Assembly (NCBI GenBank): GCA_016882235.1
Contig: VGKU01000003.1
Span: forward strand, 1-36,242
DNA: 36,242 nt
Direction: 5' to 3'
From: Candidatus Parcubacteria bacterium
GTDB taxonomy: Bacteria; Patescibacteriota; Patescibacteriia; UBA9934; GWF2-40-263
Positions 12,886 through 16,523 of the stretch are shown here, piece after piece. Position numbers and translations under genes: made by a program. How positions within the stretch are numbered: position 1 is the stretch's first letter; the number at the start of each line of letters is the position of its first letter. Under the pieces are notes generated by a model that saw only the letters and a program-made list of their open reading frames with translations, made no database searches and was not told the DNA's origin.

Positions 12886-13230
12886 TGTCATCCTGAGCGA
12901 GGGTTGCGGTACCCCCTGTGTCAGCCTGAGCGAGCGTGTACTGCCCGTTGTCATCCCGAGCGAGCGTTCCTGTGCCCCCTGTGTCATCCGAAGCGAGCGT
13001 GTACTGCCCGTTGTCATCCCGAGCGAGCGTTTATCATTTAGCCGAGGGATCTCCTGTGAATGCGAGATCCCTCCACTCGCCCCGGCGTTGCCGGGGCTCG
13101 GTCGGGATGACAAGAAAAAGCTATGTCGGGCTCGGCCGGGATGACAGGAAAAAACTCTGCCGGTGCTCGCTCCTCAGGATGACAGGAAAAAGGTGTCGGC
13201 CTTGAGACCGGACACAGAATGACAGCAGGA
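12886..13230. repeat. REP-like array: TGTCATCC units on the left, GGATGACA units on the right
   Basis: TGTCAKCC starts at 12886, 12919, 12949, 12982 and 13012; inverted GRATGACA copies at about 13104-13223; inner stems GGGATCTC/GAGATCCC and CCCCGGC/GCCGGGG. Confidence 0.85.
12919..13031 (+). repeat. 63-bp tandem duplication inside the REP-like array
   Basis: TGTCAGCCTGAGCGAGCGTGTACTGCCCGTTGTCATCCCGAGCGAGCGTT... recurs at 12982 with few changes. Confidence 0.8.
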
Positions 13231-15587: not shown

Positions 15588-16523
15588 ATGGTGAAATCGG
15601 TTCGGAATTGTGCCGAGGGGATCATTCTCCTGATTGTCTTTGCCGCCGCGACCTATTCCCAACACGACGCGATTTTTGAATGGCTGCGTGTCCACACGGC
15701 GCCACCCTTGCCGCCGGCGGTGGAGTATAGAGACGCACCGTCCGCTGTGGTCAGCGAGCCGCCTGCGTCTGCCACAAGCGATCCACTTACGTCTGCCACA
15801 AGCGATCCTCCCACTTCTGTCATCCTGAGCGAATCGCAGGCGAGCGAAGGATCTCAAACCTTCACAGATCCTTCGGCACCTGCAGTGTCTCAGAATGACA
15901 TGGACGCGGAAATTGTTTCCGTGCCGGAGCCGGCTCTGCCCCTTTCCTACAACCTTGCCATTCCGTTTACCCCGCAGGCACCAAACGAACAGTGGGGCGA
16001 ACCGTACAAGGAAGCCTGCGAGGAGGCATCGCTTTTTATGGTGCATCAGTATTACCAAGGGATGCGCGAAGGACGCATCAGCGCGGACGAGGCGGACAAG
16101 GAGATCAAAAACATCGTGGCGTTTGAAATGGAATTGTTCGGCGCGTATGAAGATACCACAACCGAGCAAACCGGTACGCTCGCCGAAATGATGTACGGCT
16201 ACGAGCGAGTGGAGACGATTGACAATCCGACGGTTGAGCAGATCAAAGCGCATGTCGCCGCGGGCCATCCGGTGATCGTGCCGGCCGCCGGCCGCTTGCT
16301 TGGCAACCCGTACTTTACCGCACCCGGTCCCCTCTACCACATGCTCGTCGTGCGTGGGTACACGCAGGACGGCCGATTCATCACCAACGACCCTGGCACC
16401 AAGCGCGGCGAAGCCTACCTGTACGATTTTGACACGCTGATGAACGCCATGCATGATTGGAACGACGGTGGAGAAATAACGAAGGGGAAGAAAGTGGTGT
16501 TGGTGATTTTTCCGAATTCCTGA
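15588..16523 (+). CDS. C39-like peptidase domain protein with repetitive linker
   Basis: N-terminal TM; SYNLAIPFTPQAPNEQWGEPYKEACEEASLFMVHQYYQG; GHPVIVPAAGRLLGNPYF...YHMLVVRGYTQDG. Confidence 0.85.
   Translation: MVKSVRNCAEGIILLIVFAAATYSQHDAIFEWLRVHTAPPLPPAVEYRDAPSAVVSEPPASATSDPLTSATSDPPTSVILSESQASEGSQTFTDPSAPAVSQNDMDAEIVSVPEPALPLSYNLAIPFTPQAPNEQWGEPYKEACEEASLFMVHQYYQGMREGRISADEADKEIKNIVAFEMELFGAYEDTTTEQTGTLAEMMYGYERVETIDNPTVEQIKAHVAAGHPVIVPAAGRLLGNPYFTAPGPLYHMLVVRGYTQDGRFITNDPGTKRGEAYLYDFDTLMNAMHDWNDGGEITKGKKVVLVIFPNS
15766..15813 (+). repeat. 24-bp tandem repeat in the linker coding region
   Basis: CGTCTGCCACAAGCGATCC at 15766 and 15790 (encodes SATSDP twice). Confidence 0.75.
15818..15900 (+). 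repeat. in-frame REP-like palindromic element within the C39-like gene
   Basis: TGTCATCCTGAG...CTCAGAATGACA termini (11/12 complementary), inner GAAGGATCT/AGATCCTTC perfect; encodes SVILSESQASEGSQTFTDPSAPAVSQND. Confidence 0.85.

Follow-up and report, generated by a model that had tools for sequence, protein, structure and literature searches.

A REP-like palindromic repeat read in frame in the linker of a C39-like peptidase gene and in other protein genes of a relative of Candidatus Uhrbacteria

We find that a REP-like palindromic repeat, present in high copy in a bacterial genome whose nearest named relatives are Candidatus Uhrbacteria, lies in frame within a gene for a C39-like peptidase. 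The palindrome is absent from the orthologue in the sister species, copies of the repeat are present in other genes of the same genome, and repeats recur at the same sites in other genera. The DNA analysed (hereafter the window) is a stretch of 36,242 nucleotides from a Candidatus Parcubacteria bacterium (assembly GCA_016882235.1, contig VGKU01000003.1), and the element, 83 bp long, occupies positions 15818..15900. Judging from its sequence, fold and motif copy number, it is very probably an inverted (head-to-head) dimer of the repeat. The explanation to which this belongs, and in which we place the same high degree of confidence, is that REP-like dimers insert widely and that a copy persists if it contains no stop, keeps the phase and sits in a tolerant loop. 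Inserts of this kind, we infer, are translated and close to neutral.

The element starts with an exact match to the terminal motif TGTCATCCTGAGCG (15818..15831, forward strand) and ends with an inverted copy of it carrying one change (15889..15900, reverse strand), the two termini reading TGTCATCCTGAG / CTCAGAATGACA. Between them lie the arms of an inner stem, CGAAGGATCT (15845..15854) and AGATCCTTCG (15866..15875), both given on the forward strand. An earlier note, made from the letters alone, had claimed an 83-bp palindrome at this place, and this is borne out both by the sequence and by the comparison of its fold with 200 dinucleotide shuffles: as RNA the element folds at -36 kcal/mol (z -5.29) and as DNA at -18.3 (z -4.14), and in neither case was any of the 200 shuffles equally stable. 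The inner stem pairs perfectly, as had been described, and its length is 10 bp, one more than claimed. The read-through translation SVILSESQASEGSQTFTDPSAPAVSQND was also given correctly; it falls at approximately residues 77-105 of the 311-aa open reading frame 15588-16523, and the peptide encoded by the repeat includes SVILSESQASEGSQTF.

The host gene (15588..16523, forward strand) encodes a protein consisting of an N-terminal TM helix, a linker and a Peptidase_C39_2 domain, an assignment based on the ORF, the PF13529 profile, orthologues and an AlphaFold model. The domain (15957..16394, forward strand; residues 124-269) matches positions 2-142 of the 143 in the profile with an E-value of 1e-11 and a score of 46 bits against a cut-off of 24, and C144, H251 and D268 all fall in columns that are invariant among 16 orthologues. 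Orthologues of the gene are found in 39 of the 43 family genomes. In the AlphaFold model, built from the 16 orthologues, the mean pLDDT is 81 and the peptidase domain is modelled with high confidence, whereas the region of lowest confidence (pLDDT < 50) spans residues 56-113 (15753..15926, forward strand) and contains the whole insert; the linker is accordingly predicted to be disordered. The placement of the element between TM helix and protease, proposed earlier, is thus upheld by the ORF, the PF13529 match and the in-frame alignment of orthologues. The linker is 75 residues long here versus 48 in the sister species (G001), whose shorter linker is unrelated and lacks the palindrome. The palindrome is not a linker common to the orthologues, and neither of the outcomes that the note had named as refuting its reading (one palindrome-free linker in all distant orthologues, or no further copies in the genome) was found. 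Aligning orthologues, as the note had suggested, could settle the absence of the palindrome in the sister species and not the exact insertion borders, since the linkers do not align.

The terminal motif is a high-copy repeat of the genome. The note had seen it as the building block of an intergenic array at 12.9-13.2 kb, and this array (12886..13220, between convergent genes) indeed consists of five copies in forward and two or more in inverted orientation; with up to two mismatches, matches start at 12886, 12919, 12949, 12982 and 13012 in forward and at 13099 and 13171 in reverse orientation. Searching the whole 723-kb assembly for TGTCATCCTGAGCG with up to two mismatches gave 58 forward and 56 reverse matches (114 in total) against 1 + 1 for the reversed control, and searching for GTCATCCYGAGCG with up to one mismatch gave 111 against 2, so that some 110 end-motif copies exist beyond those of the element. 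Seven copies of TGTCATCCTGAGCG in the genome are exact, the one in the window included. The element in the window is most similar to the intergenic copies C2:8567 (73%) and C25:4293 (74%), both of which share with it a GCGAAGGATCTC..ACCTT..AGATCCTTCG core. As is typical of REPs, the repeat is short, palindromic and abundant, and it appears to be mainly intergenic and often arranged in inverted pairs or clusters, with units 30-33 bp apart in the intergenic stretches inspected. Contigs 12, 36, 39, 41, 43, 45 and 62 of this genome (G000) start or end in or near repeat arrays; these arrays apparently interrupt the assembly, and the true copy number is probably higher. For the sister species the end-motif count is 22, with 3 in the control; among other genomes of the family it ranges from 0 to 98. 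Within the phylum, the exact motif is unevenly distributed, being found in 40 of 145 genomes, few of which have it in high copy. A pattern containing GAGGGATCT at fixed spacing had copies only in G017 and was rejected because the spacing is too variable.

Whole or partial copies of the repeat are also found in at least seven further genes of the genome, namely uvrB, ileS, valS and a methyltransferase gene and, more weakly, leuS, femX and smc. In-gene copies were located by motif, so this count is a minimum and degraded copies are undercounted; with less confidence, we regard the sequences in leuS, femX and smc as degraded or half copies. A VKOR-like match at C37:133 and several matches with two mismatches were judged on inspection to be due to chance. 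The clearest case is uvrB, which carries VILRRPKADEESHRDPSVAALPQDD and has the insert peptide DPVILRRPKADEESHRDPSVAALPQDDKPYPG. Its loop comprises 35 codons here versus a modal 9 in relatives, and subtraction of 78 bp returns it to 9 codons; a solved UvrB can be aligned up to the insert and again beyond it, the alignment breaking at the insert itself, and the borders can be placed to within a codon. Three separate repeat-derived inserts (sites A, B and C) are present in ileS (L193, on contig 9). The insert of valS comprises 46 residues, is missing in G001 and G009, and coincides with a break in the alignment to a solved ValRS at residues 726/778. The methyltransferase gene carries VILRRPKVAKGSPRLQDPSLSTLAQND. 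At most of the sites in this and the other genes, sister genomes lack the repeat.

Repeats are found at the same sites in other genera. In the C39 linker, G009 and G011, which belong to another genus, have the same family together with a CCTGAGCCTGTCGAAGG-type motif, whereas G039 and G041, from a third genus, have a different palindrome, TGTCATTGCGAG...CTCGCAATGACA, whose family is itself in high copy in these two genomes (38 and 16 matches versus 3 and 1 in the control, respectively). On the tree of the core domain, the repeat labels in this linker need three changes, the minimum possible, and involve three genera. Site A of IleRS is occupied by family A in G000, G001 and G009 and by family B in G010, G029 and G042, and is empty in G011, which is congeneric with G009 and G010. 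Taking five sites together, a repeat motif was present in 19 of the 102 site segments, whereas 100 dinucleotide shuffles gave a mean of 2.05 and a maximum of 7; the rate is thus about nine times that of the shuffles, an enrichment somewhat favoured by the fact that earlier inserts had in part prompted the motif list. Windows from the rest of the same ORFs contained the motif in 90 of 3117 cases (2.9%).

Some further sequences in these places are worth recording in their own right. Outside the motif test, a proline- and glycine-rich repeat-like type (SPLLYKEGQGEV, SPLPEGGQGGV, TPPLPRGDKGG) was seen in the same loops, in UvrB of G036 (L274), G019 (L275) and G023 (L280) and in IleRS of G016 (L258). 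In the C39 linker of G010 (L059), a CCTGAACCTGTC..GAAGGC motif is apparently split by another small palindrome, GTCCCGCTTTTAGACGGGAC, which may represent a nested insertion. The C39 linker of G026 (L058) contains FPAHRSFSEGGSLGGAEADTQADTQ, which resembles another translated repeat of unassigned family.

According to the explanation that we favour, a REP-like repeat would have multiplied in an Uhrbacteria-like genome, largely as intergenic arrays, and one copy would have inserted into the linker of the membrane-anchored C39-like peptidase. It may have survived there because the phase GTC-ATC-CTG-AGC (V-I-L-S ... S-Q-N-D) contains no stop and keeps the frame, and because a disordered linker tolerates extra residues. 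The phase of the window element, GTC-AT(C/T), is that of 12 of the 15 inserts, and in family A a TGA is met in one of the other phases. Element length leaves a remainder of 2 on division by three in 12 of the 16 elements located in long ORFs versus 13 of the 25 located elsewhere, with no clear separation of in-gene from intergenic elements. Through the same process, copies of this repeat and of one or more further families would have entered loops of UvrB, IleRS, ValRS and the methyltransferase, and inserts would separately have reached the orthologous C39 linker and loops in other genera.

Two other explanations would deny that the repeat became part of the protein or that a repeat is involved at all. 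The start of the gene might have been mis-called, so that the protein begins at the ATG at 15900 and the repeat is an RNA hairpin in the 5' leader. This in-frame ATG does stand directly after the palindrome, and Di Nocera et al. 2013 (PMC3733652) warned that many N-terminal REPs are really extragenic, through start mis-annotation. However, orthologues align in frame over residues 1-45, the TM helix included (that of G011 aligns to query residues 5-309 at 59%), and since both the TM N-terminus and the core do so, the palindrome lies within the gene and not in its leader. Ahead of the element there are, moreover, 230 nt of open frame, and the inserts of uvrB, ileS and valS are located deep within conserved domains. 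Taken together, this makes a mis-called start very improbable. Alternatively, we might be dealing with an ordinary fast-evolving linker in which a palindrome arose by chance, given that low complexity and varying length are general features of C39 linkers. This is hardly conceivable, as none of the shuffles folds as well and the motif is about nine times more frequent in the site segments than in shuffled ones; the further copies of the end motif, a high-copy genomic repeat, already refute it.

It is also worth asking whether the insert has been kept by selection, either because its RNA hairpin, located in the coding region, controls expression or because it usefully lengthens the linker. Two observations favour this: the hairpin is strong, and different repeat families repeatedly occupy the same C39 linker and IleRS loop. 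Nonetheless, we consider selection improbable: the inserts are missing from most relatives, they look decayed in leuS, femX and smc, and the genes hit are unrelated, as expected of tolerated selfish DNA. A different extension of the insertion model starts from the observation that the C39 linker holds families A, B and C and the IleRS loop A or B. Certain protein loops and linkers of Uhrbacteria might then be standing landing pads, at which palindromes of unrelated families insert, replace one another or nest time and again in different genera, owing to site preference of the mobilising process or to repeat-repeat exchange and not to tolerance alone. We regard this as a speculative and rather unlikely possibility.

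As for the mobilising enzyme, no Y1_Tnp gene (PF01797, RAYT-type) was detected in G000 or G001, although one could have been missed in G000, whose genome is 91% complete. A Y1/HUH transposase gene flanked by the repeat, the trait of RAYT-mobilised REPs, is found in neither genome. In the vicinity of ten Y1 genes from relatives, no repeat motif with up to one mismatch was found, and repeat copy number does not correlate with the number of Y1 genes (rho 0.17, p 0.27).

The earlier note had pointed to Rickettsia palindromic elements (RPEs) as a parallel. These were reported in 19 ORFs at first (Ogata et al. 2000), and one of the host enzymes was shown to be active (PMC2229807). With inserts present in several further genes, the parallel turns out to be stronger than the note had claimed. 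As with RPEs, palindromes occur both between genes and, in frame, within a variety of conserved protein genes unrelated to one another (here the C39, uvrB, ileS, valS and methyltransferase genes), and the host proteins would tolerate the inserts. However, RPEs are 105-146 bp long and restricted to Rickettsia (PMC2229807), whereas the in-gene elements described here are 68-83 bp long and reside in relatives of Candidatus Uhrbacteria, the comparison being drawn from published descriptions of RPEs. Our results would extend the Rickettsia pattern of palindromes turned protein to the candidate phyla radiation, where the neutrality of inserts, their rate of decay and the repeated colonisation of loops become testable thanks to small genomes and many related species to compare. 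For annotators, it follows that repeat-derived peptides (VILSE..., VIARSEATKQS...) in such proteins can be real coding sequence.

Other translated MITE-like repeats have been reviewed as well (PMC2229807). Those of ERIC, Neisseria and Yersinia type are likewise small inverted-repeat elements with open frames fused to coding genes, but, compared by description, they are 107-168 bp long and have other hosts (PMC2229807). Intragenic REPs have been listed for numerous species, with uvrA, uvrB and tRNA synthetases among the genes affected, and different REPs occupy about the same recB site in two Xanthomonas species (PMC3733652). The phenomenon can therefore not be called unprecedented, as intragenic translated REPs have been described in many bacteria (PMC3733652, PMC2229807). 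We found no report of such inserts in Patescibacteria in the open-licence literature, and searches for the motif strings returned unrelated papers or nothing. While the kind is already known from RPEs and intragenic REPs, the host group and the recurrent use of sites appear to be new, and the way in which different repeat families come back to the same sites somewhat exceeds the recB precedent. Among known repeats, the CGTC-tagged REPs (Di Nocera et al. 2013, PMC3733652), named in five phyla that do not include Patescibacteria, share with ours head-to-head dimers, the failure to find a dedicated transposase and intragenic copies in genes such as uvrB and those of tRNA synthetases. They differ in having an 8-9 bp stem with a 4-5 nt loop and an unpaired CCA tail, whereas in the window element the half-site stem is interrupted after ATCCT, the loop is longer and the tail is CT. 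Nonetheless, the YGTC tag of these REPs, followed by an AT able to pair with a second AT at the far end of the stem of the monomer, is present in the left half of the window element (15818-15854) as TGTC-AT...AT-CT.
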